Below, one piece after another: positions 26,927-42,078 of a stretch of 44,970 bases of DNA. Numbering within the stretch: the first letter of the stretch is position 1; each line of letters opens with the position of its first letter. The DNA lies in assembly GCF_002251835.1 (NCBI RefSeq), contig NZ_NOXV01000301.1, positions 1 through 44,970 of the forward strand, read 5' to 3'. Position numbers and translations under genes: made by a program. Source of the stretch: Flavobacterium cyanobacteriorum (GTDB taxonomy: Bacteria > Bacteroidota > Bacteroidia > Flavobacteriales > Flavobacteriaceae). The notes below the pieces were generated by a model. The model made no database searches and was not told where the DNA came from. It worked only from the letters and a program-made list of their open reading frames with translations.

Positions 26927-27033
26927 GGAGCAGTGATCAGCCGCGCTCCTCTGGAGTTTTATTTCCCGCTCTCGTCTCTATCTCCCCGCCGCAAAAGCAG
27001 GCGGCGGGGAGGATGCCGCCTCCATCGGGGCTA
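26927..27033 (-). repeat. Dispersed ~107-nt structured element, copy B
   Basis: On the minus strand from GTAGCCCCGATGG (27034-27022) to CTGCTCC (26933-26927). The 11-bp central stem pairs CTCCCCGCCGC with GCGGCGGGGAG around CTGCTTTT. The core is almost identical to copy D, with a C-G pair where D has T-A. Near the 3' end GGAGC and GCTCC form a second hairpin. It lies between the PrcB lipoprotein gene and the convergent small gene at 27168. Confidence 0.87.
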
Positions 27034-27167
27034 CCTCCAGCGCTGGTGATTACTTGCCATGTCCCTCAAGTAAAGCACCACGCAAAACCCTCAATCAATA
27101 CGTATACCTGGCTCTGTAAAAAAACTTTTAGGGCGGGGGGGTGCAGTACGCTTTATTGGCCTCTGCA

Positions 27168-27482
27168 TTATCGGTTATTCCGATGTACCAGTAGTTTATC
27201 AATAATAGCGCCTGACATCGGGTCAAGGTCGGCTTCATCACCGGTAACCAGTACACCTTTATGGCCTGATGCCGATAAAATGCCATAAACTGTCGCCTCG
27301 TCTCCGGGGTCGGTTTCCCCTTCATAAAAATATATATCCGTGATTACAAACTCTTCATGGCCAAACCGGCCCGAGTGGCATACAAGGTAATTATTATCAA
27401 GGTTAAAATCCTCATTATATCCCTTCTGCCTCAATTCTTCAATAGCTTTTGAAACGGTTGCGTAGTGGTATTGTATTTCCAT
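27168..27482 (-). CDS. Small conserved Bacteroidota protein of unknown function
   Basis: A 104-residue acidic soluble protein: YATVSKAIEELRQKGYNEDFNLDNN at the start, EEFVITDIYFYEGETDPGDE in the middle, and YGILSASGHKGVLVTGDEAD near the end. This family is often labelled phosphoribosylpyrophosphate synthetase in Bacteroidota genomes; it is far too short and lacks the PRPP loop, so that name is unsupported. The ATG at 27482 is preferred over the TTG at 27509, because a consensus promoter places transcription start near 27500. It is a single-gene unit. An all-beta small regulator is possible, but I assign nothing. Confidence 0.72.
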   Translation of the reverse strand: MEIQYHYATVSKAIEELRQKGYNEDFNLDNNYLVCHSGRFGHEEFVITDIYFYEGETDPGDEATVYGILSASGHKGVLVTGDEADLDPMSGAIIDKLLVHRNNR

Positions 27483-27506
27483 GATGGTAACAATTACGTT
27501 ATATTT

Positions 27507-27539
27507 CAAAAGTAAGCATTAAATCAAAATAAAAATCAA
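27507..27539 (-). promoter_or_regulatory. Promoter of the small gene at 27168
   Basis: Read leftward: TTG (27539-27537), 22 bp, TACTTTTG (27514-27507), matching TTG/N17-23/TAnnTTTG. The predicted start of transcription near 27500 leaves an ~18-nt leader to the ATG at 27482. Confidence 0.6.
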
Positions 27540-27616
27540 TATTATATACTGCCATTAGAAATGATAATATTTTTTAACCCATATTACCGCAAAGAAAAAC
27601 ATAAAGTGGAAGCTTA

Positions 27617-28840
27617 TTATGAATGCAGGCTGTTGATTTCTTCCTCTATCTCCTTTTTGTACTTGATGGGTAGTAAAATTATAAATGATGTTCCCTTCTC
27701 TTTGCCTTCACTTATCGCTTCTATAGTACCTTTATGGAGTTCAACCAGCGATTTAGTTATGGAAAGCCCCAGGCCATTTGATGTTTCTTTGCCGGTTGGT
27801 TTTGAACTTAGTTTGGCAAATTTTGTAAACAGCCTGCCCACGTCTTCCCGGTTAAGCCCCTGCCCTTCGTCTTTAACCTCAATCCTCATGTAATCCTCAT
27901 GGTGCGTTGCCATAAGCTTTATGGTAGAACCATGGTAGGAATATTTTATGGCATTGCTTAGCAGGTTGTGCAGTATGTCTGAAAGTTTTGTACGGTCAGC
28001 TTCCACAGCAGGAAGATTATCTTCGCAGTGTACTTCTATGACCTGGTTTTTGCGGTAAGCCAGCAGGTCAAAACTGTTGAGCAGCCTTTTGAACATGTCG
28101 TTTATGTCAACCTCCTCAATAAGCATTACCATTTCCTTATCTTCCATTTCCGATTGTTTCAGCAGCTCGTCAAGTTTGTTCTGTATACGTATCACAGAAG
28201 ATTTAATCATTTCAGTCATCCTGCCTGCCGCCGAAGGGTCCTTCTGGATGATTTCATTGGCCAGTTTTATCGAAGCCAGCGGGTTTTTTATTTCGTGGAG
28301 CGCGATGTTCATAAGGTTTACCTGTGCTTCAACGTTTTTGCGGTAGCGCAACTTATTTTCCAGCTTATCCACAATTATTTTGGCAATGATGCGCAGCATT
28401 TCAATCTGTGTTGCTGTTGCCGAGCCAGGCTCATCAGAACATACGCATACGGCGCCTACATTATATCCTTCGGGTGATTTAAGCGGTGCTCCTGCAAAAA
28501 AACGGACGCCTCCATCGAGGGCTACAAGAGGGCTATTCTTTAAAAAAGGTATTTCGTTGGTGTCGTTAATTACAGTAACTTCATCATCCAGTATGGCTAT
28601 AGACGATATGCTCGCCCTGCGGTCCACTTCATTGTGGGGCAGCTGGCTTAGGTTTGATTTTATAAAAACCCTGTCTTCGTCAACAAATGTAATAAAAGCA
28701 CTTTGCGCTTCAAAAACCTGTAGTGCCATGAGTGCCATTTTATCAAAGGTATCTTCAGTATGCGTATCAAGTATATTATACTCACGCAATTTTTCAAGCC
28801 GCCTTGCCTCGTTTTCTTTCAGTGCCTCACTGGTCGTCAT
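27617..28840 (-). CDS. Soluble GAF-domain sensor histidine kinase
   Basis: A 407-residue cytoplasmic two-component kinase with no membrane helix. Residues ~10-160 are a GAF domain (FDKMALMALQVFEAQSAFIT, FFAGAPLKSPEGYNVGAVCV). The dimerisation helix has the phospho-accepting His182 in NIALHEIKNPLAS. The ATPase domain (~285-400) has the N box LSDILHNLLSNAIKYS, the G1 box DEGQGLN and the G2 box GLGLSITKSLVELHKG. The GAF domain resembles those sensing redox or small ligands, but no ligand residues can be named. No response regulator lies nearby, so it is an orphan. It stands alone between two leftward genes. Confidence 0.9.
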   Translation of the reverse strand: MTTSEALKENEARRLEKLREYNILDTHTEDTFDKMALMALQVFEAQSAFITFVDEDRVFIKSNLSQLPHNEVDRRASISSIAILDDEVTVINDTNEIPFLKNSPLVALDGGVRFFAGAPLKSPEGYNVGAVCVCSDEPGSATATQIEMLRIIAKIIVDKLENKLRYRKNVEAQVNLMNIALHEIKNPLASIKLANEIIQKDPSAAGRMTEMIKSSVIRIQNKLDELLKQSEMEDKEMVMLIEEVDINDMFKRLLNSFDLLAYRKNQVIEVHCEDNLPAVEADRTKLSDILHNLLSNAIKYSYHGSTIKLMATHHEDYMRIEVKDEGQGLNREDVGRLFTKFAKLSSKPTGKETSNGLGLSITKSLVELHKGTIEAISEGKEKGTSFIILLPIKYKKEIEEEINSLHS

Positions 28841-29033
28841 GTATCAGGGTTGTTTAGTAGACTCCGAAATTAAGTATAATAATTAAGGATTATGCAATGG
28901 TTGTATAATGTTGTAACAAAATCAGTAGAATTGTATAAACAGCAGGTCTGTTTAAAAAAGGCAACAGTGCGCCTACAGGACTGGCTACACGTTATTCAGG
29001 GTTTCTGCTCTATTGCAATCCCATGTTTTTAAA

Positions 29034-29062
29034 TGAAAACCCCGCCTTTTCAGGGGCGGGGC
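29034..29062 (-). terminator. Intrinsic terminator after the T9SS protein gene
   Basis: CCCCGCC (29040-29046) and GGCGGGG (29055-29061) form a perfect 7-bp GC stem with an 8-nt loop; on the minus strand it is followed by TTTTC. It sits 30 bp beyond the stop of the gene ending at 29091. Confidence 0.75.
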
Positions 29063-29090
29063 TTACAAAAAAATAAAAAACAAAATGAAA

Positions 29091-32000
29091 CTACTCAACA
29101 ATGAGTTTCTTCGTGATTCCTTCGGAAGTCTTTATAAAATAAATACCCGAAGCGAAAGATGATGTGTTTAAAGTAAGCGCGTTTTTGGCAGCATGTACCA
29201 GTTTGCCGCTTATATCATATACTTCAATGTCAGCAACACGGTTGAAGTAGGCTATGCCGCTAACCGACGGGTTAGGGAACACTACAAAAGTTTTCGGTTC
29301 TTCAGTAAAGTTGCCGGTTGAAAGGTTGGTAATATCAAGCTCAAAAACCGTTATGGTGCCGCTAATTTCGTTCGCGACTACTATATAAGGTTTGCCGTTG
29401 GCGCTTTCAGTACTGCTTATGTAGGTAATCCCTTCCGGGCCGTGGTCACCTGTATAGGCTGATACGCTCCTGCTGTTCTTATAATCTACAAACGAAACAT
29501 CGTTAGGGTTGGTTACATCATAAACCATAACGCCACCAATCCTTTCAAGCGCTACAAAGGCAAATGTCCTGCCCTGTATCTGGGCTATGGCAACACCTTC
29601 AGGCTCCGGCCCTTTAGCACGGCTGCGGCCTTTAAAACTGTTGCTTTCGCTGTCAGAGTTAAATAAAGTGTTTATCGAAGGCGCTGATGCTGTGTACATT
29701 TCAAAATCGTCACCGCTGTCATACACCAGTTGTTTTGTATCAGCATTGAAAATGGAGAAAGAACGGGTACCTACGGCATATATCTGTTCAAACTGCGCGT
29801 CAGCATCGGTATTACCATTCAGGTTGGTAACCCTGAGGCGCCCTGCATTATAGCTTTTCTTAAGCATGGCACCCTGCGGATAGGCTACGGCATCAAGCGG
29901 ATAGTTGTTGTTACCGATAGTAGTACGTTCAGAAAGGCCTGTAAGTTCTTTTTCATCACCTTCGTTGGCAGTAATGATATAGTTAGTGCCCCCTACATTG
30001 TACGTAGCTGCCGCATCGGGTATATAATAAGTTTTAATAGGCCAGTTGGCTATAAGTACCTGATTGTTGTTGTCCGATATATCGAAGCCGTTGCCTAATA
30101 CGCTCATGTCTTTTGTGCCTAAAGCCCAAACGCTTGCAATAGTACCTGTAGCCAGGTTTATTTCTGCAATGGCGTTATTTTCCTGCAGGGTAACCCAGGC
30201 CTTTTGCGAATCAGCGCTCGTAGTGATATACTCCGGCTCAAAATCCTGGGACATGGTGCTGGTTAGTTTCAGCTTGCGGACGCCTGAATTTATAAGTGCG
30301 GCTTCAGTTGTAGTGTCGTTATAGGCAGTAAACAGGAGCGTGGTAACGTTAGCCTGTGTAAGCGACGGGATACCCCCCGAAATATCTATTATACTTATTG
30401 AGCCTTCAGGGTCAACCGTATAGCTTTCATTCGGCTGTCCTTCATTGGCAGTAAGTACTTTGGTACCATCCGGAGTGAAAGAGATGTTATCAGGCAGCGC
30501 GCCTACAGTAACCTGTTTCTGGAAAACACCGTCAGTGTTAAAGAACACTACCGATCCTTCAAGCTGCTCATTGGCATTTGGCGAAGCTACGGCCACAATA
30601 CCGTTTTTAACGGCAACGCTGGTAACACCGCCATAAGGGTTCATGTTAATGCTGTTAACCACAGTAGGAGCCTCAGGGTTAGAAAAATTAATAATATCAA
30701 GGAAACCTGCCACAGCGCTTGTGGTGAAAAGCCTTTGGCTTCCGGCGTCATACACTACAATTTCGCAGGTGCTGCTGTTTGTTCCTGAAGGGTCGAAGCT
30801 GGTAACATATGTCAGTTCTAATGACTGGCTCGGCACTGGTGCCTGCCTGTCGTTATCCCTGATGTAAACTGTAGCCATGGTTTCACCTGTAATAGTAATT
30901 CCGTTAGCATTTTCAAGGCTTAGCACAAAGTATTCTGAGTGCTGCTCTTCCGTAGTATCGTCAATGATAGGTATGTTTATTGTTTGTGTAAGCGCACTTG
31001 TACCCGTAAAGCTGAGTGTTTGTGTAGTATAAGTAAAATCACCGGAATCAGCAGTGCTGAAAGGCGCAGCTTTAAGTACTACATCAACAGAGCCTGTTGC
31101 AGGGCTGGCAAGTGTAAGGTTAAATGTAAGTGTGCCCTGGTTTTCTTCTACCACAATGAAATCTGATGCCAGTGATACAGTTGGGTTGTAGCTGAAGTTA
31201 AATACATAGGCACAAGCCATTAGCAGCCCGTTTTCATCTTCAATATTGTTAATGGTAAGGGCATATGGCGTAGCAGTTGCAAAAGGCGTGCTGTAGGTAA
31301 GGGTAACCGTAGCCCCTGATACCGCAGCATTGGCAATACCTGCAATACCTGTATAATTTGCCGTATTTGATGCTGAAGCGGCATCAAGCTCATTATTAAA
31401 TGTAAGCTGGATGGTGGTATTATTTATAACTACAGCATTTTGTACTGAAGGAGAGCTTGGGAAATTCCACGCTGGCCAGGTTTGCGGGGCCGTACTGCCT
31501 GCAACAGCAATCCAGTTAGCAGGATTAAGTATTGAGGCTTTAAGCGCTGCGGGGTCTCCTGTTTGTGTCCCGTTATAATAAGCGTTAACAGAGTTGCCTG
31601 ATGTATTACCCGGCGCTGTGCTCAGGTTAACAGCGCTTACTCCGTCAGTAAGCGTAGCAGGTATCATGGAGCTGCTTCCGCTACAGCTTGTGGCAGCAGC
31701 TACCCATGCGTTTGATGAAAGTGCCGTAATATAGTTTGGCGCTGCAGCTGTACCTGCATAAACTATAACCTGGTCTCCGTTCGAGCTAAGCCCAAAACCG
31801 TTGCCTGTTACGGTACCCGTGCTGGCAACCAGCCCTTCGGTCTGTATAGTAATTACAGTACCGGCAGGTACGCATTGTGTAGCGGCCCACACAATTCCGT
31901 TAGGGCATTGCGGCTGCGCGTTGGTTGTATATTTTGCATCGGTAAGGTTTATAAAGGTGCCAGGGGCAATATCTATAAGGGTAAGCAGTGCTACGGTATC

Positions 32001-33029
32001 TTCTGTGCCTGTAGCATTCATCCTGTAAGTTACCGGAACCATATCGCCGGCCATAAATGCTGTTTGTACGGCAATTGTTGTAAATGTTGCCGAAGGTGTT
32101 CCTGCTACGGCATTGTTGCTCATGTCCTCCAGTGTCCCGGGGGCAATGGCTATATAATATTGCTGGTTATTTAGCAGTGCGGTGGCTGGTGTTACTGTAA
32201 TAGTATTGCCTGCATAAACAGCAGTAAAAGGTACATCTGCGCCTGTTGCATTATTCAGCTTAAGCTGTACAATTGTGTTCAGTCCGCTATCAGTTACCGG
32301 GCTGTCGTCAGCCAGCCTCACAGCTTCATTAAATGAAATCTGTAGTGTTGAGGAAACAGCAACATTAGTTGCGTTATTAGCTGGTAGAAAAGTTACTGAT
32401 GGGGGAGTTGTATCTGTTGTGCCGCCCATAGCGAAAGCCTGCAGGGTAAAGTTATCAAAACGGTTATTCCCGCCTGTGCCACCGGCTCCCTGTGCAAATT
32501 CAACTTTTAATTTAAAGTTGGGGTTATTGTCTGTGGCATCAATACCTGAAAAGTCAAGCGTGGTAAGTCCGGGGTCACTATTATTTGGGTTAATCGTTGT
32601 AAATAGCGTATAATTAGTGCCGTCTGTGGTGTAATACCACAGCTGGTTGCCGGCACCCTGTCCTGAGCGGCGGGTAGCAAATTTTATTACCGCATTTTCA
32701 TATCCTGTAGTAGGCAGGCTGAATACCAGCGCCCCGCCTATAGGATTATTAAAGCGCAGGTGTGTGCCCGCAGCATCCCCATTTTGTGCATTAAGGTTCT
32801 GCACCTCAAAATTCTGGCCTGTGCCCTCGGAAAAAGCAATTACACTGGTGCCGCCAGCCAGGTGGGCTAGTGCAGCGCCTGGTACCAGTGACAATGATGG
32901 CGTGGTAATGGCAGCTTCCGAGCTACTGTCATTAAAATTCCAGTAGTGGAGTAATTGCTGCGCTCCTGCAAATTGTGCTATTGTGCAGAGCATCAATAAC
33001 ATAATAATTTTTTTGTAGTTGTTTAGCAT
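29091..33029 (-). CDS. Large choice-of-anchor I protein with type IX secretion C-terminal domain
   Basis: A mosaic secreted protein of 1312 residues from ATG 33029 (the frame opens at 33077). A signal peptide (KKIIMLLMLCTIAQFAGAQ) is followed by a ~190-residue jelly-roll-like domain, a Big_5 Ig-like domain (TPPSVTFLPANNATNVAVS), a ~200-residue lamin-tail-like region, another Ig-like domain, a Calx-beta domain (FIVVEENQGTLTFNLTLA), and a ~490-residue choice-of-anchor I beta-propeller-like domain (PDNISFTPDGTKVLTANEGQ, HGPEGITYI). The last ~65 residues form a type A T9SS sorting domain (FPNPSVSGIAYFN ending in KKLIVE), so it is exported and anchored at the surface. Choice-of-anchor I domains resemble phytase/esterase-like propellers, but enzymatic activity is unproven. 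Single-gene unit with a strong terminator. Confidence 0.88.
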   Translation of the reverse strand: MLNNYKKIIMLLMLCTIAQFAGAQQLLHYWNFNDSSSEAAITTPSLSLVPGAALAHLAGGTSVIAFSEGTGQNFEVQNLNAQNGDAAGTHLRFNNPIGGALVFSLPTTGYENAVIKFATRRSGQGAGNQLWYYTTDGTNYTLFTTINPNNSDPGLTTLDFSGIDATDNNPNFKLKVEFAQGAGGTGGNNRFDNFTLQAFAMGGTTDTTPPSVTFLPANNATNVAVSSTLQISFNEAVRLADDSPVTDSGLNTIVQLKLNNATGADVPFTAVYAGNTITVTPATALLNNQQYYIAIAPGTLEDMSNNAVAGTPSATFTTIAVQTAFMAGDMVPVTYRMNATGTEDTVALLTLIDIAPGTFINLTDAKYTTNAQPQCPNGIVWAATQCVPAGTVITIQTEGLVASTGTVTGNGFGLSSNGDQVIVYAGTAAAPNYITALSSNAWVAAATSCSGSSSMIPATLTDGVSAVNLSTAPGNTSGNSVNAYYNGTQTGDPAALKASILNPANWIAVAGSTAPQTWPAWNFPSSPSVQNAVVINNTTIQLTFNNELDAASASNTANYTGIAGIANAAVSGATVTLTYSTPFATATPYALTINNIEDENGLLMACAYVFNFSYNPTVSLASDFIVVEENQGTLTFNLTLASPATGSVDVVLKAAPFSTADSGDFTYTTQTLSFTGTSALTQTINIPIIDDTTEEQHSEYFVLSLENANGITITGETMATVYIRDNDRQAPVPSQSLELTYVTSFDPSGTNSSTCEIVVYDAGSQRLFTTSAVAGFLDIINFSNPEAPTVVNSINMNPYGGVTSVAVKNGIVAVASPNANEQLEGSVVFFNTDGVFQKQVTVGALPDNISFTPDGTKVLTANEGQPNESYTVDPEGSISIIDISGGIPSLTQANVTTLLFTAYNDTTTEAALINSGVRKLKLTSTMSQDFEPEYITTSADSQKAWVTLQENNAIAEINLATGTIASVWALGTKDMSVLGNGFDISDNNNQVLIANWPIKTYYIPDAAATYNVGGTNYIITANEGDEKELTGLSERTTIGNNNYPLDAVAYPQGAMLKKSYNAGRLRVTNLNGNTDADAQFEQIYAVGTRSFSIFNADTKQLVYDSGDDFEMYTASAPSINTLFNSDSESNSFKGRSRAKGPEPEGVAIAQIQGRTFAFVALERIGGVMVYDVTNPNDVSFVDYKNSRSVSAYTGDHGPEGITYISSTESANGKPYIVVANEISGTITVFELDITNLSTGNFTEEPKTFVVFPNPSVSGIAYFNRVADIEVYDISGKLVHAAKNALTLNTSSFASGIYFIKTSEGITKKLIVE

Positions 33030-33280
33030 GTGTTGATGTTGTTTACTAATAATAGCACAAAAGTCCGCCCCATCCATTAGCTAAACATTAAACCAACGAT
33101 AACGATGTATTAACTTACAGAATGGTAATGTTTGGAAAATGTAAAGCGGGGCATTGCCGCTTAACATTGCATTAATAAAAAAATGGCTGTTAAGGAAATT
33201 TGACAACCAGCCTGTTATCAAAGTGCCTGGCATAAAATTGTATATATATTATAAGAAGAGTACAGCCACCCTCCGTAGCG

Positions 33281-33381
33281 GGCCGGTATATACTGGTGTG
33301 TAGTGTAGCCCCGATGAGAAAAAATCTATACATTTTGGGATTACTGGCCGGTATATACTGGTGTGTAGATGTAGCCCCGAT
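33281..33381 (+). repeat. Direct repeat carrying a truncated element copy
   Basis: The 23-bp sequence at 33281-33303 recurs exactly at 33346-33368 (65-bp period). Both copies run into TGTAGCCCCGAT, the 5' end of the dispersed element (33304-33315; 33370-33381 after one extra A). The first copy then diverges into AT-rich sequence, while the second continues as full copy C. Confidence 0.85.
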
Positions 33382-33477
33382 AGAAGCGGCATCCTCCCGC
33401 TGCCGCGCTTATGGCAGCGGGAGATATAGCGGAGAGCGGGATGTGCGATTGCAAAAGTGCGCTTAGCCGGCTGCTCC
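33371..33477 (+). repeat. Dispersed ~107-nt structured element, copy C
   Basis: From GTAGCCCCGATAG to GGCTGCTCC. The central 11-bp stem pairs CTCCCGCTGCC with GGCAGCGGGAG around GCGCTTAT. Downstream, GGAGAGC can pair with GCTGCTCC with one bulged G. Closest to copy A. It lies between the T9SS gene (its 5' side) and tpiA (its 3' side). Confidence 0.87.
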
Positions 33478-33561
33478 ATAAAAAATTCAATGATTAAATA
33501 AATAGATAGATGAAAATCAAAGGATTAAATCTTTTCTGTAGTTTTTATTAATGTACGGGGC

Positions 33562-33592
33562 AAAAAAAAGAAAGCGGCTAAAAGCCGCTTCC
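33562..33592 (-). terminator. Intrinsic terminator after tpiA
   Basis: AAGCGGCT (33572-33579) and AGCCGCTT (33583-33590) form a perfect 8-bp stem with a 3-nt loop. On the minus strand it is followed by eight T within C/T. It ends the leftward DUF1599-to-tpiA run. Confidence 0.9.
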
Positions 33593-33612
33593 ATTGTTGA
33601 TAATGCTTGTAG

Positions 33613-34374
33613 TTACAGGTTTTCCATTGCATTTACAATGGCAAGAAAATCATCTGCTTTTAAGGATGCACCGCCTATAAGGCCACCGTCAACATCCGGC
33701 TTTCCGAAGATCTCGCGGGCATTGTCAGCCTTAACACTTCCGCCATAAAGGATAGAAGTTTGCCCGGCAATAGTTTCACCAACATTGTTGCGTAGCAGGG
33801 CCCTTACGAACGCGTGCATTTCCTGTGCCTGCTCCGGTGTAGCAGTTTCGCCTGTGCCTATAGCCCATACGGGTTCGTAAGCCAGTACAATATTGCTCCA
33901 GTCACTTTCACTCAAATGGAAAAGGGCTTCCCTTAGCTGCGTTTCCACCACATCAAAATGTTTTGCCGACTGCCTTTCGGCTAATTCTTCTCCAAAGCAG
34001 AAAATCACGGTTAGGTTATGTTTAAGCGCGGTATTTACTTTTTCGGCCAGTATGCTGTTGGTTTCGCCAAAATACTGCCTCCTTTCAGAGTGCCCTAATA
34101 TTACTGTGTTAACATTAATGCCCTTAAGCATCCCTACTGATACTTCGCCGGTAAAAGCACCGCTCTCGGCCTGGTGCATGTTTTGTGCCGCTACGATAAT
34201 ACCGGTGTCACGGGTTTGTTCCACAGCGGCCTGCAGGTTCACAAAACCAGGCGCAATAACAATTTTGGTAGCGGTGGTTTCCGGCTTTTTGGAAAGTATG
34301 CCCTCTATCAGCGCTTTCGACTGCACAATATCGTTGTTCATCTTCCAGTTGCCGGCTACAATCTTTTTTCTCAT
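33613..34374 (-). CDS. tpiA: Triose-phosphate isomerase
   Basis: Interconverts dihydroxyacetone phosphate and glyceraldehyde 3-phosphate. Full-length TIM barrel of 253 residues. Lys11 in GNWKMN, His95 in ILGHSERRQYF and the catalytic base Glu167 in AYEPVWAIGTG are all present, as is the phosphate-binding LYGGSVKADNA near the end. Its ATG overlaps the last base of the upstream TlpA gene stop, so the two are translationally coupled. It is the last gene of a leftward run and has a strong terminator. Together with PfkA, GapA and MgsA in this window it covers the triose node of glycolysis. Certain. Confidence 0.97.
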   Translation of the reverse strand: MRKKIVAGNWKMNNDIVQSKALIEGILSKKPETTATKIVIAPGFVNLQAAVEQTRDTGIIVAAQNMHQAESGAFTGEVSVGMLKGINVNTVILGHSERRQYFGETNSILAEKVNTALKHNLTVIFCFGEELAERQSAKHFDVVETQLREALFHLSESDWSNIVLAYEPVWAIGTGETATPEQAQEMHAFVRALLRNNVGETIAGQTSILYGGSVKADNAREIFGKPDVDGGLIGGASLKADDFLAIVNAMENL

Positions 34375-34874: not shown

Positions 34875-34897
34875 TGTAGTTATTATTTAAAGAGTAA

Positions 34898-34905
34898 CAA
34901 ATTTA
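34898..34905 (-). promoter_or_regulatory. -7 element before the TlpA gene
   Basis: On the minus strand TAAATTTG (34905-34898) matches TAnnTTTG and lies 23 bp upstream of the TlpA ATG. No TTG occurs at the right distance, so support is partial. It would give TlpA-tpiA a promoter separate from the permease. Confidence 0.35.
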
Positions 34906-34990
34906 TGGATAACTCATTAACATATACCCATTAAAAATAAAATATTTAAGGCTAAAGAAGATGGAATTATGATTATAACGTTTTCGTGAT

Positions 34991-36067
34991 TTACTCCAGC
35001 CTTATCCTAGGGTCAAGGTACGCATATATAATATCTACAATAATGTTGATGATAACAAATGTAGTAGCAATAACCAGTACTGAACCCATAATTACGGGCA
35101 GGTCGAGAGTATTAAGGGCTTCTACAACCTCCTTACCCAGGCCGTTCCACCCGAAGATGTATTCCACAAAAACGGCGCCTGCCAGCATAGAGGCAAACCA
35201 ACCTGAAATGGCAGTAACAACCGGGTTGAGCGCATTCTTCAGTGCGTGCCTGCGGATGATGCGTGCCTCACTGAGCCCCTTGGCACGTGCAGTGCGTATG
35301 TAATCCTGCCCCATAACTTCCAGCAGCGAATTGCGCATAAGCTGTATCACCACGCCAAGGGGGCGTATACCAAGCACTATTGATGGTAATATGATATTCT
35401 TCCACCTGATGTAGGAACCTTCGCCAAAATCATCTACCTCATATAGGCTGCCCGTCATGTCAAGGCCTGTATAGCGGTGGAGCAGGAACCCAAATACCCA
35501 GGCAAATAATATGGCAGCAAAAAAGGAGGGAAGGCTCATGCCCAGCGTACTCACAAGCGCAATTACCCTGTCAATCCAGGTGTCTTTATACAAAGCAGAA
35601 ACAATACCCAGGAATATACCGATAACGATAGCGATAATAATGGCAAAGAATGCCAAAACAATAGTATTGGGCAGCGTATCAACGATGACCTGCGTTACTT
35701 TTTTTCCGCTTTTCTGGAAACTTTCGCGCAGGTAAGGTGCTTTAACTACTGTTGTGGTTGAGCCGATGGTGAAAAGCTTTATTGCCGAATATTTCCCTTC
35801 GGCCAGATAGGTATAATCACCGGCAACGGTACTGTGGAAAGACAGCGGGGATAAGTCGTTGAGGTAATAAAGGTACTGCGTGCCAACAGGCTGGTCGAAC
35901 CCGTACTTTTTTTTAATGATAGCAAGCTGCTCGCTGTTCTCGTTCTGGTCCAGCATCATCCGCGCAGGGTCGCCCGGCAGCACGGTAAATAAAAAGAATA
36001 TTACCGTTACCACCCCAAAGAGTGTTAACAGTGCATATCCTGTTTTATATAAGAGGTACCTGAGCAA
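34991..36067 (-). CDS. ABC transporter permease, DppB/OppB type, without partners
   Basis: A 358-residue inner-membrane permease of the peptide/nickel importer family. It has the N-terminal helix LLYKTGYALLTLFGVVTVIFF, the LPGDPARMML segment, a ~90-residue periplasmic insert, five more helices and the EAA loop (QDYIRTARAKGLSEARIIRRHALKNAL). The last motif, DIIYAYLDPRIRL, is typical. Start is TTG 36067 with no nearby ATG; the upstream frame is open but lacks a start. In this window there is no second permease, no ATPase and no binding protein, which such importers need; partners would have to be elsewhere. It sits between the DoxX fusion and TlpA genes on the same strand. Confidence 0.88.
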   Translation of the reverse strand: MLRYLLYKTGYALLTLFGVVTVIFFLFTVLPGDPARMMLDQNENSEQLAIIKKKYGFDQPVGTQYLYYLNDLSPLSFHSTVAGDYTYLAEGKYSAIKLFTIGSTTTVVKAPYLRESFQKSGKKVTQVIVDTLPNTIVLAFFAIIIAIVIGIFLGIVSALYKDTWIDRVIALVSTLGMSLPSFFAAILFAWVFGFLLHRYTGLDMTGSLYEVDDFGEGSYIRWKNIILPSIVLGIRPLGVVIQLMRNSLLEVMGQDYIRTARAKGLSEARIIRRHALKNALNPVVTAISGWFASMLAGAVFVEYIFGWNGLGKEVVEALNTLDLPVIMGSVLVIATTFVIINIIVDIIYAYLDPRIRLE

Positions 36068-36121
36068 CTGGTTTTTGATTATTTTGTGATTACTGCGACT
36101 GTAACTGATCAGTGATTAGAA

Positions 36122-37222
36122 CTATTTCAGCTCTACATGTTCAATGTCATTCCAGTGTGCCTTTTGCTTTATAGTGCCTTTTTCCAGTATCACTATACTC
36201 GGGTTGGCTCTCTCAATAGTTTTTAGTGTAGTGGCATCGCAAAAATAGTAGTTGAATGACAGCCCGTGCTGCTTTTTCTTTTGCGCTATAATATCAGCAG
36301 GCGAAGCTGTAGCCCCAATCACTTTATAACCTTTAAGCTGTGCTTCGCGGGCAAAGGCTTCAAGCTTTCCAAGTCCCTTATCACTGGCTTTCTCCAGGTC
36401 ATATGAAATGAACATTACAAGTTTAGGTTCATTCAGCAGTTCTTCAGTGTAATTGGCACCATCCAGTTCCAGCGTAAAATCATGTATAGGCGGCACATAT
36501 CCTTCTTTTACCAGCTTATCTTTACGGTCCACATATTCAGCGTCGGCCGGGATTTTATCTAATTCTTTATCTGTAAATTCTTTTTCTGCACCATTTACCT
36601 TGTAGATAAAAACAATTTCATAAACTGATTTGGGCGCACCGGGCGGCACTTCCATCCCTTTCCGGATGTTTGTACCTATCTTGTAAGCACGGAAATCTAT
36701 AATTGGCAGGTGCATCAGTACATAATAGGCCAAAAGCCCGCACAAGGCAAGCCCTGAATAAACTGTTAACCCTGCTGCGAATTTGCTGAAAACGCGTTTC
36801 ACATACTTTTGGTTGAAGAATATTACCAAAATAAGTACCAGTAATACAACATCTTTGGTAAATGATTCCCAGGGAGTCAGCTTAAGCGCATCACCAAAAC
36901 AGCCACAGTCAGTCACTTTATTGAAGTACGCTGAATAGAAAGTAAGGAACGTGAAGAACACGATCATGAGTAGCAGGCTCCACAGCGTAAATTTCTTTTT
37001 ATACCCCACCAGCAGCATTATGCCCAGTACTACCTCAAAAATTACTACAAAAACAGCAAACGCCAGTGCATAGGGTATAAGGAACTCCAGGTTTAGTACC
37101 TCGGCGTTGAAGTACTCCTGCAGTTTAAAGGAGAAACCTACAGGGTCGTTGAGCTTTATAAGGCCTGATATAATGAACAGGACCCCCACAAGAACCCTGC
37201 AAATATTAGTAATTATCTTCAT
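36122..37222 (-). CDS. BT_3928-type protein: DoxX/MauE membrane domain plus thioredoxin-like domain
   Basis: A 366-residue inner-membrane protein. Residues 1-~195 hold five helices of a DoxX/MauE-like domain (ICRVLVGVLFIISGLIKLND, the family opening; CGCFGDALKLTPWESF with a Cys-Gly-Cys). The periplasmic C-terminus (~240-366) has a thioredoxin-like fold (EPKLVMFISYDLEKASDKGL, IERANPSIVILEKGTI), but no CxxC. The arrangement suggests electron transfer from quinol to a periplasmic acceptor, as in MauE/VKOR-like systems; that is inference. DUF1599 lies 18 bp upstream, and a TlpA reductase is encoded further down the same run. Known Bacteroidota family with no assigned function. Confidence 0.82.
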   Translation of the reverse strand: MKIITNICRVLVGVLFIISGLIKLNDPVGFSFKLQEYFNAEVLNLEFLIPYALAFAVFVVIFEVVLGIMLLVGYKKKFTLWSLLLMIVFFTFLTFYSAYFNKVTDCGCFGDALKLTPWESFTKDVVLLVLILVIFFNQKYVKRVFSKFAAGLTVYSGLALCGLLAYYVLMHLPIIDFRAYKIGTNIRKGMEVPPGAPKSVYEIVFIYKVNGAEKEFTDKELDKIPADAEYVDRKDKLVKEGYVPPIHDFTLELDGANYTEELLNEPKLVMFISYDLEKASDKGLGKLEAFAREAQLKGYKVIGATASPADIIAQKKKQHGLSFNYYFCDATTLKTIERANPSIVILEKGTIKQKAHWNDIEHVELK

Positions 37223-37240
37223 AGTTTATGTTGTAGATGG

Positions 37241-37780
37241 TTATATTTTTTTCATGAGTATCAATGCAAAAACCGCATAGTTTATCATATCCTGGTAATT
37301 GGCATCAATACCTTCACTTACAAGGGTTTTGCCTTTATTATCTTCTATCTGCTTTACCCGGAGCAGCTTCTGCAAAATCAGGTCAGTGAGCGAACTCACC
37401 CTCATATCGCGCCACGCCTCGCCATAGTCGTGGTTCTTGGCTTCCATGAGGGTTTTGGTAAGGGCTACTTTTTCATCATATAGTGCGATGGCTTCGTCAA
37501 CATTTAAGTCCGGCTGGTCGGCAACACCTTTGTCCAGCTGTATCAGCGCCATGATGGAGTAGTTGATGATACCAATAAATTCGCCTGTTTCATCTTCATC
37601 AACCTTGCGTACCTCATTTTCCTGGAGGCTGCGTATACGCTGGGCTTTTATAAAAATCTGGTCAGTCAGTGACGGCAGCCTTAAAATGCGCCAGGCACTG
37701 CCGTAATCTTTCATTTTATTGATATATAGCTGCCTGCATACAGCAATTACACTGTCATATTCGGCGGAAGTATTGCTCAT
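37241..37780 (-). CDS. DUF1599 domain protein
   Basis: A 179-residue all-helical cytoplasmic protein made of two similar halves: KMKDYGSAWRILRLPSLTDQ in the first and AKNHDYGEAWRDMRVSSLTD in the second, each followed by LxxxRxxxL, QRIRSLQENE and RVKQIEDNKG. The internal duplication is visible directly and typical of the family. Function is unknown; the helical repeats with conserved Lys/Asp/Trp recall nucleotide pyrophosphohydrolase folds, but that is speculative. It is first in the leftward run to tpiA and divergent to folP, an arrangement common in Bacteroidota. Confidence 0.85.
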   Translation of the reverse strand: MSNTSAEYDSVIAVCRQLYINKMKDYGSAWRILRLPSLTDQIFIKAQRIRSLQENEVRKVDEDETGEFIGIINYSIMALIQLDKGVADQPDLNVDEAIALYDEKVALTKTLMEAKNHDYGEAWRDMRVSSLTDLILQKLLRVKQIEDNKGKTLVSEGIDANYQDMINYAVFALILMKKI

Positions 37781-37787
37781 TAAATAG

Positions 37788-37795
37788 TATCTTTG
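37788..37795 (+). promoter_or_regulatory. -7 element before folP
   Basis: TATCTTTG matches TAnnTTTG. The nearest upstream TTG (37773-37775) is only 12 bp away, too close for the usual spacing. Transcription would start near 37801, giving a ~63-nt folP leader. Confidence 0.4.
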
Positions 37796-37808
37796 TGTGA
37801 AATTTTCC

Positions 37809-37816
37809 CAAATGTA
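37809..37816 (-). promoter_or_regulatory. -7 element before the DUF1599 gene
   Basis: On the minus strand TACATTTG (37816-37809) matches TAnnTTTG and lies 29 bp upstream of the DUF1599 ATG. No -33 TTG at 17-23 bp. With the folP element 13 bp away on the other strand, the two transcripts would start back to front, nearly overlapping. Confidence 0.4.
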
Positions 37817-37864
37817 CTAAAACGCGCCATAAAAAACTAAGGGGTCAATTTAAAAACTACCAAC

Positions 37865-38689
37865 ATGCTTATCAACTGCAAAGGCCGGCTAATTGATTTG
37901 TCTCAGCCCAAAGTAATGGGTATACTGAATTGCACACCCGACTCTTTTTATGATGGGGGTAAATATAAAAATGAACATGAGTTACTTAGCCAGGCCGAAC
38001 GAATGCTGGCAGAAGGAGCTGATTTTATTGATATAGGTGCCTATTCATCTAAACCCAACGCAGAATATGTAAGCGGGGAAGAGGAGCTTCGGCGCATTGT
38101 TCCTGTAGTGGAGCTGGTACTTAAAAATTTTCCTGGTACATTGGTTTCAGTTGATACTTTTCGTGCAAATGTGGCAAAAGAAACAATACTGGCCGGGGCT
38201 GCAATAGTAAATGATATTTCAGCGGGGCTGCTGGATGAGGCTATGCTCGAAACTGTAGGCAAACTAAATGTTCCGTACATTATGATGCACATGCGCGGCA
38301 CACCACAAACCATGGTTAAACTGACGGATTATGAGGACATTGTAAAAGAAATACTATTTTACTTTTCGCAGCGGATAGCAGCCGCAAGGAAGGCGGGCAT
38401 TAATGATATTGTAATAGACCCAGGGTTTGGATTTGCCAAAACGCTGGAACAGAATTATGAAGTGCTTCGAAAACTGGAGCTTTTTCATATAACAGAGCTG
38501 CCGGTTTTGGCAGGTGTTTCGCGCAAATCAATGATATATAGGTTACTGGGTATAACGCCCCAAGAATCACTAAACGGCACCACCGTGCTAAACACCCTTG
38601 CACTGGCTAAAGGTGCCCATATCCTTAGGGTTCATGATGTGAAGGAAGCGGTGGAAACGATTAAAATTATGATGAATTTTAAATTATAA
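37865..38689 (+). CDS. folP: Dihydropteroate synthase
   Basis: Condenses p-aminobenzoate with dihydropterin pyrophosphate to make dihydropteroate in folate synthesis; the target of sulfonamides. A TIM barrel of 274 residues with the pterin and PABA loops intact: MGILNCTPDSFYDGGKY (18-34), IDIGAYSSKPNAEYVS, SVDTFRANVAKE, NDISAG, IMMHMRGTPQTM and VIDPGFGFAKTLEQN, and a C-terminal LRVHDVKEAVE. Alone on the plus strand, divergent to the DUF1599 gene and convergent with rlmH across a long inverted repeat. Certain. Confidence 0.96.
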   Translation: MLINCKGRLIDLSQPKVMGILNCTPDSFYDGGKYKNEHELLSQAERMLAEGADFIDIGAYSSKPNAEYVSGEEELRRIVPVVELVLKNFPGTLVSVDTFRANVAKETILAGAAIVNDISAGLLDEAMLETVGKLNVPYIMMHMRGTPQTMVKLTDYEDIVKEILFYFSQRIAAARKAGINDIVIDPGFGFAKTLEQNYEVLRKLELFHITELPVLAGVSRKSMIYRLLGITPQESLNGTTVLNTLALAKGAHILRVHDVKEAVETIKIMMNFKL

Positions 38690-38740
38690 ATTTTGAATTT
38701 ATCTGGTTTGAAGACATTTAAAATTCAGAATTTAAAATTT
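38681..38740. terminator. Imperfect inverted repeat between convergent folP and rlmH
   Basis: The 20-bp arms 38681-38700 and 38721-38740 are complementary at 18 of 20 positions, with a 20-nt loop. The left arm includes the folP stop. The AT-rich hairpin with T-runs on both strands fits a bidirectional terminator. Confidence 0.6.
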
Positions 38741-38747
38741 AAAATAA

Positions 38748-39221
38748 TTATTGATGATGATACGGTTCCCCTTTTAAAATGGTAAAAGCGCGGTACAGCT
38801 GCTCGATAAAGAACAGGCGTACCATCTGGTGCGAGAACGTCATAGCCGATAGCGACACCCTGCCCTGTGCCTTGCCGTAAACCGCATCAGAGAATCCATA
38901 AGGGCCGCCGATTACGAAAACAAGGGTTTTTATGCCTGAATTCATTTTCTTCTGTAGCTCGGCGGAAAAAGCAACGCTGCTGAAGCTTTTGCCGTTCTCG
39001 TCAAGCAGGATAAGCTTGTCGGTGGGGGAAAGCTTGGCCAGGATCATTTCGCCTTCCTTTTCTTTCTGCTGCGCCTCGCTCAGGTTCTTCACGTTCTTGA
39101 TGTCCGGTATTACTTCCAGCTCAAACTTAATGTAGAACGAGAGCCGTTTCATGTAATCGTCCATGAGCTGCTGCAGGTTTTTGTTGTCGGTCTTGCCTAT
39201 GGCGAGGAGCTTTATGTTCAT
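38748..39221 (-). CDS. rlmH: 23S rRNA (pseudouridine-1915-N3)-methyltransferase RlmH
   Basis: Methylates pseudouridine 1915 in helix 69 of 23S rRNA using S-adenosylmethionine. A 157-residue SPOUT protein, the standard length. MNIKLLAIGKTDNKNLQQLM opens it; LILLDENGKSFSS and VFVIGGPYGFSD form the knot region; and the C-terminal SLSAMTFSHQMVRLFFIEQ with RAFTILKGEPYHHQ is the family signature with the invariant His. Single-gene unit, convergent with folP. Certain. Confidence 0.96.
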   Translation of the reverse strand: MNIKLLAIGKTDNKNLQQLMDDYMKRLSFYIKFELEVIPDIKNVKNLSEAQQKEKEGEMILAKLSPTDKLILLDENGKSFSSVAFSAELQKKMNSGIKTLVFVIGGPYGFSDAVYGKAQGRVSLSAMTFSHQMVRLFFIEQLYRAFTILKGEPYHHQ

Positions 39222-39564
39222 GTTTCAGTTGAAAGTTGAAGGTTGCAAAGTTAGCAAGTTCTTCCATTTCGACGGCAGGAGAATTCTCAATTATGGAACG
39301 CGGATGACGCGGATTGGGCTGATGACCGCTGATTTAATGCAAGAGTGGAGCTCCCCTCTTGTGAGGGGTTAGGGGTGTGTTAAATAAACATATAAATTCT
39401 AAATTATTCAATTCTAAATATTTTGATATGGATAATTTTTACAAATTTAAACAGACAATCAAATAATCGGACTATAAAAAAAATCAACAGGTTTGACCAA
39501 TACATGAATATCATTAAATTTCTACAATAATTTTTTTCCCTATTTTAGCCCAAATAATCCGTAC
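39222..39564. other. 343-bp intergenic region, rlmH to nadC
   Basis: It holds a degenerate 9-bp tandem repeat (39300-39335), a short GC hairpin CCCCTC/GAGGGG (39353-39368) followed by GTTAGGGG, and an AT-rich leader to nadC. TATTTTAG at 39541-39548 is one base from the -7 consensus. The GC-rich block resembles scattered intergenic repeats I recall from Bacteroidota genomes. No gene is visible. Confidence 0.55.
39300..39335. repeat. Degenerate 9-bp tandem repeat
   Basis: Four consecutive 9-mers: GCGGATGAC, GCGGATTGG, GCTGATGAC, CGCTGATTT. They share a GCxGAT core in the first three and a shifted one in the fourth. Located 80 bp upstream of the rlmH start on its 5' side. Confidence 0.5.
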
Positions 39565-40422
39565 ATGATTTCAAAGGAACAATTTCAGAAAGAACTCGAT
39601 ATCATAATAGCCAACGCCATACGTGAAGACGTAGGCCCCGGCGACCATTCCTCACTGGCCTGTATACCCGCCACCGCCACCGGCCGCGCCAAGCTCCAGG
39701 TAAAAGATACCGGCATATTGGCAGGGGTTGATTTTGCACAGCAGGTTTTTAAGTACGTAGATCCTAACCTTACTGTTGAATTATTCCTGCACGACGGTAC
39801 GCCCGTGCAGCATGGCGATGTGGCTTTCCATGTTTCGGGCAGTTCGCAAAGTATATTAAAGGCCGAAAGGCTGGTGCTCAATGCCATGCAGCGCATGAGC
39901 GCCATTGCCACGAAGACAAAGAAGTATGTGGACCTGCTGGAAGGTACGGGTACTAAAATACTTGATACCCGCAAGACTACCCCGGGCATCCGCGCGCTGG
40001 AAAAATGGGCCGTAACCATAGGCGGCGGCGAAAACCACCGCTTTGCCCTTTACGACATGATAATGCTGAAGGACAACCACATAGATTTTGCCGGCGGCAT
40101 TACCCAGGCCATCACCAAAACACATGGCTACCTAAAGGCTAATAATTTAGACCTGAAAATTATAGTTGAGGCACGAAATTTGGATGAGGTACGTGAGATT
40201 ATTGCCAACCCGGGCGTGTACCGCATCCTGCTCGATAATTTTGACTATGCCCAAACGCGTGAAGCCGTTGCCCTGATAGGCAGCTATTGCCAGACGGAAT
40301 CTTCAGGTGGCATCAATGAGCAGACGATGCGCCACTATGCCGAGTGCGGTGTAAATTATATATCTTCGGGGGCGCTTACACATTCAATTTATAATTTAGA
40401 CCTAAGCTTAAAAGCCTTTTAA
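39565..40422 (+). CDS. nadC: Nicotinate-nucleotide pyrophosphorylase (carboxylating)
   Basis: Converts quinolinate and PRPP to nicotinate mononucleotide, CO2 and pyrophosphate in NAD synthesis. Full length at 285 residues. Family motifs: IREDVGPGDHSSLACIP at 19-35, ERLVLNAMQRMSAIATKTKKY, ILDTRKTTPGIRALEKWAV with the quinolinate-binding Arg/Lys, GGGENHRFALYDMIMLKDNH, and IIVEARNLDEV with the C-terminal YISSGALTHS. yihY starts within its stop codon (TAATG), so the two are translationally coupled. nadA and nadB are not in the window. Certain. Confidence 0.96.
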   Translation: MISKEQFQKELDIIIANAIREDVGPGDHSSLACIPATATGRAKLQVKDTGILAGVDFAQQVFKYVDPNLTVELFLHDGTPVQHGDVAFHVSGSSQSILKAERLVLNAMQRMSAIATKTKKYVDLLEGTGTKILDTRKTTPGIRALEKWAVTIGGGENHRFALYDMIMLKDNHIDFAGGITQAITKTHGYLKANNLDLKIIVEARNLDEVREIIANPGVYRILLDNFDYAQTREAVALIGSYCQTESSGGINEQTMRHYAECGVNYISSGALTHSIYNLDLSLKAF

Positions 40423-41348
40423 TGTCGGCGGAACTGGAACATAAACTTGAACGCATACCGGTAATAAAATACCTGGTGCATTTCAGCAAAAGCATAAAGC
40501 TGCCCTATTCAGAAGGGCTTACGCTCTACCACCTGCTGGAACTCTATATTACGGGCGTGGTTAAGGGCGATGTGTCTTACCGTGCCGGTTCCATAGCGTT
40601 CAGTTTCTTCATGTCGCTGTTCCCGTTCCTGCTTTTTTTGCTCAACCTCATACCTTACATACCCATTAAAGGTTTCCGTGAAGATTTCCTCATGTTCGTG
40701 GCTGACAATGTCCCGCCCAATACGTATGACGCTATAGAAAAGATACTGAAAGACATCATGAATACCAGTTATGGCAGCCTTCTTTCCATAGGTATCCTAC
40801 TGGCAGTTTTGCTCATGAGCAATGGCATGAATGCGCTTCTGAGCGGTTTCCAGAGCAGCATGCATATCACTATAAAGCGCACTTTTTTCCGCCAGTATGC
40901 CCTGGCTATAGGGATATCGTTGGTGTTTGTGTTCCTGCTTATCATCACGGTTGTAGCCATACTGGTACTGGAGGTTATCATACACAGCCTTAAGGACAGC
41001 GGCTTTCTTACAGATGATATTTACCTCCTGGAAACAGGCAGGTACATTTTTCTTGTCCTGATGATACTTACCGGGACTTCCGTGCTGTTTAAATATGCCG
41101 CAAAAGAAACGAGCCAGGCCGCTTTTTTTAGTTATGGTTCAGTGCTGAGTACTTTGCTTTTTGTAGTAACGTCTTACCTTTTCGGTATTTATGTGGTGCG
41201 GTTCAGTAAATATAATGAGTTGTATGGGTCTATAGGTACTTTGCTGGTACTAATGCTCTATATATGGATAAACTGCTTTATCCTCTTGCTTGGTTTCGAA
41301 TTAAATGCACTTATTCATAAATTAAAAAGAAAAAATTTATACATTTAA
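40422..41348 (+). CDS. YihY/BrkB-family inner-membrane protein
   Basis: A 308-residue inner-membrane protein of the YihY (UPF0761) family, with six hydrophobic segments: SIAFSFFMSLFPFLLFLLNL, YGSLLSIGILLAVLLMSNGM, ALAIGISLVFVFLLIITVVA, and three more in the C-terminal half ending in LYIWINCFILLLGFELNALI. The motif SYRAGSIAFSFFMSLFPF is family-typical. Once thought to be RNase BN; that was disproved for E. coli YihY, and the family now has no firm function, though BrkB was linked to serum resistance. Begins inside the nadC stop codon. Followed after 21 bp by the DUF2147 gene. Confidence 0.9.
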   Translation: MSAELEHKLERIPVIKYLVHFSKSIKLPYSEGLTLYHLLELYITGVVKGDVSYRAGSIAFSFFMSLFPFLLFLLNLIPYIPIKGFREDFLMFVADNVPPNTYDAIEKILKDIMNTSYGSLLSIGILLAVLLMSNGMNALLSGFQSSMHITIKRTFFRQYALAIGISLVFVFLLIITVVAILVLEVIIHSLKDSGFLTDDIYLLETGRYIFLVLMILTGTSVLFKYAAKETSQAAFFSYGSVLSTLLFVVTSYLFGIYVVRFSKYNELYGSIGTLLVLMLYIWINCFILLLGFELNALIHKLKRKNLYI

Positions 41349-41369
41349 CAAAATTAAAAAGTAATCATC

Positions 41370-41798
41370 ATGAAAAACTATTTATTAGCAATGCTCTTTA
41401 TGGCTGTAGCGGGGACTTTTTCAGCACAGGCACAGGTTACCGGCAGATGGAAAACCATTGACGATGAAACCGGACAGCCAAAGTCTATAGTTGAAATTTA
41501 CGAGCAAAACGGAAAAATTTACGGCAAGGTGGTAGAAATACTGAATCCTGACCGTAAAAATGCAAAATGCGACAAATGCAAAGGCGCGGACAAAGGCAAG
41601 CCGGTGCTTGGGCTTATTATTATAAAAGGCCTTACTAAAGATGGTGATGAATGGACTGATGGTGATATCCTGGATCCTGTAAAAGGAAAAACCTATAGCT
41701 GCACTATAACACTTGATAACAAAGACAAGCTTAATGTGCGCGGCTATATGGGTATATCACTTTTGGGCCGCAGCCAGACATGGTACAGGGTGAAATAA
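41370..41798 (+). CDS. DUF2147 exported protein, paralogue 1 (with CxxC)
   Basis: A 142-residue periplasmic or outer-membrane-associated protein with a signal peptide (NYLLAMLFMAVAGTFSAQA). The DUF2147 pattern is complete: VTGRWKTIDDETGQPKSIVE, IYGKVVEILNP, the Cys pair CDKCKGADKGKPVLG, WTDGDILDPVKGKTYSC and a C-terminal RGYMGISLLGRSQTWYRV. The structure family is a lipocalin-like beta-barrel; no function is established. It follows yihY by 21 bp and ends with a strong terminator. A paralogue lacking the Cys pair lies at 44292. Confidence 0.88.
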   Translation: MKNYLLAMLFMAVAGTFSAQAQVTGRWKTIDDETGQPKSIVEIYEQNGKIYGKVVEILNPDRKNAKCDKCKGADKGKPVLGLIIIKGLTKDGDEWTDGDILDPVKGKTYSCTITLDNKDKLNVRGYMGISLLGRSQTWYRVK

Positions 41799-41870
41799 GC
41801 AGGTAGCGAGCTGTCAGTAATTATTTGACTTTTGGCAGCCTTATTAGCTGAAATGCGTAATACAAAAAAG

Positions 41871-41896
41871 CGCTCCCATAAAGGGAGTGTTTTTTT
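41871..41896 (+). terminator. Intrinsic terminator after DUF2147 paralogue 1
   Basis: CGCTCCC (41871-41877) pairs with GGGAGTG (41883-41889) with one G-T pair around a 5-nt loop, then seven T (41890-41896). Strong rho-independent form. Confidence 0.9.
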
Positions 41897-41972
41897 ATTT
41901 TGATGCGTTGTACCCTGCCTGTAGGGGGGTAATTATCCGTTTAGCCGCGAGGGTTGCGCCGGCGTTTTGGCC

Positions 41973-42078
41973 TAGCCCCGATGGAGGCGGCATCCTCCCT
42001 GCCGCCTGCTTTTGCGGCAGGGAGATAGAGGCGACAGCGGGACCTGCATGGGCGGATATGCCTATGGACGGCTGCTCC
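41973..42078 (+). repeat. Dispersed ~107-nt structured element, copy D
   Basis: From TAGCCCCGATGG to GGCTGCTCC. The central 11-bp stem pairs CTCCCTGCCGC with GCGGCAGGGAG around CTGCTTTT. Its core differs from copy B mainly by a T-A pair in place of C-G, a matched change that keeps the stem. It lies between convergent DUF2147 and membrane-protein genes. Confidence 0.87.

Follow-up and report, generated by a model that had tools for sequence, protein, structure and literature searches.

Integron attC sites are recognised as one folded strand and carry unpaired landmark bases and freely varying stems. REP elements, in the passages that PMC6006769 and PMC2817692 devote to them, are high-copy, mostly intergenic imperfect hairpins with conserved unpaired positions, of which one strand folds. 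The ERIC/RU and MITE-like sequences, as portrayed in part of PMC2229807, are dispersed imperfect palindromes of about 100-150 nt. We studied a repeat that invites comparison with all of these, the Flavo-1 motif (Rfam RF01705), starting from a 44,970-nucleotide stretch of the Flavobacterium cyanobacteriorum genome (contig NZ_NOXV01000301.1, positions 1 to 44,970; hereafter the window). Flavo-1 was marked "probably" an RNA by Weinberg 2010 (PMC2864571), and the passages naming it in the open-access literature (PMC2864571, PMC9723704, PMC9029176) assign no function to it. Flavo-1 shares with REP elements the features listed above; unlike the REP/RAYT systems, it mostly lacks a GT[AG]G foot and does not lie beside the 20 Y1_Tnp genes inspected (see below). 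Its likeness to ERIC/RU is one of build, Flavo-1 too being a dispersed imperfect palindrome of that size in which no gene was seen; it differs from them in that its copies keep their fold at the same sites in different species. Compared with attC, Flavo-1 sites are dispersed; a cassette array was not noticed, in an analysis that did not look for an integrase. The paired bases of Flavo-1 covary, and in two close species the compared copies are unchanged at paired positions while their flanks diverge (see below).

The four copies in the window, A to D, all matched RF01705 over its full 76-position model and above its gathering score of 42 bits. Copy A (9587-9692; core 9621-9692 and a 3' extension to GCTGCTC at 9587-9593; 53.0 bits) and copy B (26927-27033; core 26964-27033 and an extension to CTGCTCC at 26927-26933; 44.1 bits) lie on the minus strand. 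On the plus strand are copy C (33372-33477; core 33372-33441 and an extension to GGCTGCTCC at 33469-33477; 58.6 bits) and copy D (41973-42078; core 41973-42042 and an extension to GGCTGCTCC at 42070-42078; 49.5 bits). Their helices and loops are those of the motif as given in part of PMC2864571. B and D have exactly the 70-nt core in common (TAGCCCC...GCGGGA, 94% identity), and the pattern CTCCCYGCCGC, with at most one mismatch, matched the window 8 times against a mean of 0.87 in shuffled sequence. The triosephosphate isomerase encoded beside the element has named relatives mostly in Flavobacterium; the two nearest are 78% and 75% identical to it as proteins.

Flavo-1 is a dispersed, mostly intergenic, high-copy repeat in many Flavobacterium genomes and some relatives. 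The F. cyanobacteriorum genome (G000) held at least 89 matches at E<=0.001, at least 80 of them above the cut-off, a count that is a lower bound, 150 of 728 first-look candidates having been scored. Several of its contigs (C110, C112, C186, C205, C212, C215 and others) end tens of bases from a Flavo-1 hairpin; the assembly thus breaks there, which again makes copy counts lower bounds. An even sample of Bacteroidota had a match in 44 of 296 genomes (36 above the cut-off), with at least 15 matches each in F. cyanobacteriorum and in 17 other genomes of its genus listed there. In a nearer sample Flavo-1 occurred in 26 of 40 genomes, the highest counts being at least 89 among the matches listed; the same-genus G018 and G020 had none, G024 had one and G002 four.

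With the T of TAG numbered 0 and the final A of GGGA numbered -1, one strand of Flavo-1 is able to fold into a long imperfect hairpin, built of short helices and two internal loops that each open with G.A. From the outside inward come TAGCC, a 4-pair helix, an A.G mismatch, a 2-pair helix, a 3x3 internal loop, a second 2-pair helix, the second internal loop, a helix, a bulged C, and a variable stem with its loop. The central hairpins that a sequence-only reading of the window had written out for three copies were found exactly so: CTCCCCGCCGC-CTGCTTTT-GCGGCGGGGAG on the Flavo-1 strand of B (26982-27011, minus), CTCCCGCTGCC-GCGCTTAT-GGCAGCGGGAG in C (33394-33423, plus) and CTCCCTGCCGC-CTGCTTTT-GCGGCAGGGAG in D (41995-42024, plus). 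Its two loop classes were likewise present, CTGCTTTT in B and D and GCGCTTAT in A and C. The kept pairing that it described holds for these three hairpins. Flaws that it did not mention are one G.G mismatch in the central stem of A and, in the outer helices, those of B (10/-8 G.G and 14/-12 G.A), C (10/-8 A.G) and D (14/-12 G.G); the predicted RNA fold of B contains no outer helices at all.

The unpaired positions are conserved as well. In the first internal loop, all 63 own copies and 77 of the 80 from relatives have G.A at 11/-9; A.G stands at 13/-11 in 45 of the own copies and in 76 of those from relatives, giving G-N-A over G-N-A. The second loop opens with G.A in every own copy and in 79 from relatives; it closes with C.A in 62 own copies and with A.G in 40 from relatives. 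All these fractions are upper bounds, as copies were selected partly by Watson-Crick pairs and loop letters. At 8/-6, 67 of 75 own copies have the mismatch as A.G and the other 8 as G.A (E=0.18, non-significant): it is swapped, never mended into a pair, unlike the perfect pairs that arm-to-arm copying would be expected to give.

On the 3' side, own copies mostly extend 29-33 nt beyond the Rfam model to GCTCC, and a second subtype adds a closing helix (see below). Of 79 own copies, 67 have a GCTCC that starts within 60 nt past the core (61 at 29-33 nt and 6 at 1-4 nt), and 3 have one in the 80 nt upstream of it; a 3' end running to GCTCC is a family feature. Conservation about 25-30 nt 5' of the core is weak. 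RNAalifold with ribosum scoring paired the AGC of TAGC with the GCT of GCTCC, closing the element, and since these letters are nearly invariant, covariation cannot test this pairing. The 3' domain pairing GGAGAGC with GCTGCTCC, which had been read in C and partly in D, appeared when C was folded with its flanks to minimum energy and was absent from the corresponding fold of D. GGAGAGC arises in C together with its A.G at 10/-8, and its pairing competes with the outer helices; for this reason we leave it out of the features of the family.

Covariation was assessed with our own script written after R-scape, not with R-scape itself, using a G statistic with average-product correction and a tree-aware null in which the substitutions of each branch were re-dealt among columns. 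The main set of 65 own and 80 relative copies was chosen and registered by letters with pairs unscored; some invariant paired positions are among the anchor letters, and the three outer pairs that proved significant were left free. In these 145 copies the significant outer pairs were (6,-4), (10,-8) and (15,-13), the first two present as all four Watson-Crick types, and seven of the nine stem pairs reached significance (E<0.05) in a set of 79 distinct hairpins, with the bias, not removable, that most copies studied came from stretches around Rfam matches, whose score rewards pairing. No pair outside the fold was significant in either set under two nulls. With the own genome alone (72 of 79 copies), (10,-8) and (6,-4) were the only significant pairs and the central hairpin had none, so that the hairpin covariation depends on the relatives; another alignment of own copies added (5,-3) (E=0.015), making three outer pairs. 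Two of the 79 copies were dropped for the consensus, and two more of the remaining 77 for that other alignment; seven pairs significant there in loop columns 34-40 were set aside as a probable artefact of aligning two loop types. The pair-preserving evolution that the sequence-only reading had proposed is thereby borne out, every significant covarying pair lying inside the fold, and compensatory differences recur at a site compared between species (see below). The covariation that it expected in a genome-wide alignment is found for three outer and most hairpin pairs with relatives included, and for two outer pairs in the own genome.

The same reading had left open whether the fold matters as RNA or as a DNA cruciform. 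That it matters stands; a symmetric cruciform is disfavoured. Mismatches in hairpin stems were G.T in 23 cases against A.C in none, with 32 of other kinds, in one selection, and in a pair-blind selection of 711 cells, 641 of them Watson-Crick, they were G.T in 26 against A.C in 5, with 39 others; the outer helices gave 8 against 3. A G.T on the Flavo-1 strand is an A.C on its complement, and the preference for G.T therefore indicates that folding is kept in the Flavo-1 strand. The G.A and A.G letters of the internal loops occur on one strand only, the same strand that the G.T bias points to. RNA fold energies were 1.6 to 4.6 kcal/mol better for the Flavo-1 strand than for its complement in A, C and D, not in B; folding z-scores, computed for RNA and for DNA, were modest for either strand, and energies alone did not decide the matter.

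A strand preference of this kind is equally what a fold acting in RNA would show, and this is a serious rival explanation: the hairpin would work in mRNA leaders, trailers or operon gaps, through stability, processing or protein binding, and would be transcribed by its neighbours or from its own promoter. It has in its favour the 2010 marking, the G.U-like tolerance (26:5 over A.C in the pair-blind selection) and the position of many copies in convergent gaps, hence often near 3' ends. Gene context was counted for 115 copies (79 own and 36 relative), taking open reading frames (ORFs) of 110 codons or more for neighbours. Convergent gaps held 28 copies against 9 in divergent ones, an excess that comes from the own genome (26 against 6; relatives 2 against 3); 8 copies lacked a flank and 8 lay inside an ORF, some of these not real genes. 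In tandem gaps, however, a sense preference that RNA would lead one to expect is absent, with 30 sense and 32 antisense copies, and the antisense copies are as intact as the sense ones: of 8 outer pairs, 7.80 were Watson-Crick in sense and 7.70 in antisense copies (p=0.77; 41 and 47 copies). The direction of Flavo-1 relative to genes is thus random, which together with the intact antisense copies argues against read-through RNA and against the Rfam label "sRNA". The relevant part of the F. psychrophilum transcriptome study (PMC9723704), which places many Flavo-1 outside transcribed regions, agrees with these counts. An own promoter or antisense read-through would be compatible with the data, and we regard action in RNA as a real if rather doubtful possibility.

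Two other explanations fare worse. That Flavo-1 is a family of trans-acting small RNA (sRNA) genes, as the Rfam type line "Gene; sRNA" has it, seems highly improbable given at least 89 matches in one genome, in all gene contexts, and the many untranscribed copies in the F. psychrophilum account (PMC9723704). Intrinsic terminators would accord with a GC-rich stem and with the convergent-gap excess in the own genome, but the consensus after the stem is GATATAGCGG, not a T run, and the stems are A/T-rich in several relatives; we give this possibility hardly any weight. A replication-strand bias, suggested post hoc by the top-scoring copies of one complete genome, was rejected, as neither the full 59 matches of G010 (p=0.63) nor 26 of G045 (p=0.76) show it. 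Contig 1 of G043 carries a run of like-directed Flavo-1 copies.

Orthologous copies were compared between F. turcicum (G040) and F. erciyesense (G041), which are 94% identical around the isomerase gene; copies located in the former were mapped onto the latter by flanks alone. Of 36 matches, 28 could be mapped and 19 entered the count. The nine mapped matches left out comprised seven chance matches without the motif, one pair of the second subtype and one site (L265/L266); five of the eight unmapped ones were Flavo-1-like, two with evident counterparts and three without one established. Changed positions in the 19 copies numbered 0 of 380 in pairs, 8 of 361 in internal loops and 18 of 667 in the hairpin, against 130 of 1553 (about 8%) in their non-ORF flanks (Fisher p=2e-13 for pairs), in a set that is biased, as 14 of the 19 lay at F. 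turcicum positions from the search listing that guided the windows. The five orthologous copies outside that listing also had no change in 100 paired positions (p=0.0004). Five of the eight internal-loop changes fell at the middle positions 12 or 17, one at -16 and two at base 0. Twenty element-blind stretches held too few copies for the divergence test to be repeated: one shared Flavo-1-like copy, changed at -8 in a pair already A.A, one further shared copy of the second subtype (L299/L306) and two chance matches. That paired positions scarcely change points to some job done in place by the folded single strand.

Single sites were also compared across several species. In the gap between two ORFs read as a putative lipoprotein gene and a putative kdsA, a copy stands at the same place and in the same direction in six species (L132, L165, L174, L181, L155, L156). 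Its five distinct sequences have A-T at 10/-8 in three and G-C in two, and C-G at 15/-13 in two and T-A in three; the cap stems differ among species and are identical only in L155 and L156. Seven other species have a gap of 68-180 bp with no recognisable copy. In the yihY-DUF2147 gap the L152 copy is intact, and six other species have gaps of 11-54 bp. These patterns indicate that copies come and go in the long term and can be held over shorter times.

Such gaps without a recognisable copy in other species, the many dispersed copies and the patchy presence over 44 of 296 Bacteroidota genomes are what a selfish REP- or MITE-like element would leave, one whose fold serves only its copying by a transposase and has no role for the host. 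This explanation we consider unlikely. It does not account for copies that stay unchanged in place while their flanks diverge, and mapping between F. turcicum and F. erciyesense revealed no site empty of its Flavo-1 copy, three copies being unmapped. The terminal inverted repeats and target-site duplication of a MITE would be read from an empty site; the gaps compared between species gave none that could be aligned, their intergenic flanks being too diverged. Carriage by phages or plasmids was rejected: the exact 5'-half pattern was absent from viral contigs, and element C had no plasmid match.

A mobilising partner of the RAYT kind was also sought. Y1_Tnp had no match in the 306 contigs of the own genome, in a gap of which a transposase could hide, and was found in 5 of 14 control genomes. 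Among 25 genomes of the genus, 18 had both Flavo-1 and Y1_Tnp, 5 Flavo-1 only, 1 Y1_Tnp only and 1 neither, so that the presence of Y1_Tnp does not track that of Flavo-1. Over all 40 genomes the tally was 20 with both, 6 with Flavo-1 only, 2 with Y1_Tnp only and 12 with neither, a co-occurrence that we would put down to kinship and genome size. No Flavo-1-like element lay within 1.5 kb of the Y1_Tnp gene at any of 20 loci; these came one each from 20 of the 22 genomes in which Y1_Tnp matched, and of those 20 genomes 18 have Flavo-1. The GT[AG]G foot is not found in most copies, the base before TAG or CAG being G in 5 of 79. A RAYT partner for Flavo-1 was rejected on these grounds, other transposase families not having been searched. 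By eye, the RAYT-like loci L053, L056 and L057 carry other palindromes nearby; in L053 and L056 several GATAGCGCGGATTTGCAATCCGTGCCC-like palindromes flank the Y1_Tnp gene and are perhaps a REP family of their own. For Bacteroidetes genes of subclass 2.6, PMC6006769 reports adjacent "atypical secondary structures".

A second Flavo-1 subtype, GCGTT-AGGGAT..AGCCCGACCC..AACGCCC, occurs in relatives and in the own genome. Its inverted outer helix AGGGAT..AGCCC was seen in L033, L083, L088, L103, L104, L107 (own genome), L195, L242, L290 and L299. The closing helix, outside the Rfam model, varies by eye as GCGTT/AACGC, GCGTG/CACGC, GCGCG/CGCGC and GCATG/CATGC, with L236, L296 and L141 as exceptions. 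Four copies of this subtype scored by Rfam gave 34.7 to 66.8 bits, two of them below the cut-off. Part of PMC3733652 describes CGTC-tagged palindromes in Bacteroidetes.

Some Flavo-1 copies are combined with other sequences. A separate short repeat, ACTTCA...GTGAATTTCATTT, interrupts the 3' arm of a copy in L266 (near 6891-6943, minus) and both arms of the one in the lipoprotein-kdsA gap of L137. Upstream of kdsA in four species (L126, L131, L136, L198) there is a Flavo-1 5' half with other sequence in the hairpin's place. The hairpin loop of a copy in L242 (18589-18669) contains a small CCCGAAACTTCGGG palindrome, which by eye is missing from the likely ortholog in L235 (14141-14209). Just 5' of copy C in the window, a 23-nt sequence occurs twice at a spacing of 65 nt (33281-33368), with a truncated Flavo-1 5' end, TGTAGCCCCGATGAG, between the repeats. 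At 38665-38749 of the window, an AT-rich inverted repeat with 34-nt arms, 82% complementary, lies between two converging ORFs and is possibly a two-way terminator.

We tentatively favour, at somewhat below even confidence, the reading that Flavo-1 copies are REP-like one-strand hairpin sites bound by a presumed host factor. Recognition of the folded single strand by a host protein would be what keeps the sites, and that strand would more probably be read as single-stranded DNA, exposed by replication, repair or supercoiling, than as RNA, the former being preferred because transcription direction has no effect. Flavo-1 would then work like REP elements without a RAYT partner. Several observations weigh against this reading, in addition to the selection biases and the fragmented assembly mentioned above. 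The excess of G.T over A.C fits RNA as well as it fits single-stranded DNA, and both the protein partner and the single-stranded exposure are steps that we infer. Two ortholog pairs missed by the mapping do differ by eye, one by a paired change from A-T to G.T and the other by loss of a conserved G.A; one ortholog of the second subtype has lost paired G's, with changes in a paired triplet; the L265/L266 site holds two grossly different copies that cannot be aligned; and the element-blind stretches were too poor in copies to repeat the comparison. Some copies decay: besides the flawed outer pairs of B, C and D, the lipoprotein-kdsA copy of L152 has a broken 3' arm, and in the yihY-DUF2147 gap the hairpin is lost in L156 and the copy is eroded in L155.

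In its fuller form, which we advance only as a possibility, this reading makes Flavo-1 a network of up to about 100 or more chromosomal one-strand hairpin sites with G.A landmarks in many Flavobacterium genomes, which selection would maintain in either direction of transcription, independent of RAYT and read by a structure-specific Bacteroidota protein, and not an sRNA family. Flavo-1 has stood in the catalogue since 2010 as a probable RNA with no function. The evidence that single copies are retained in place, on one strand and irrespective of gene direction, makes that entry testable, and raises the question of which factor reads the many folded sites of Flavobacterium, and whether it reads them as DNA or as RNA.

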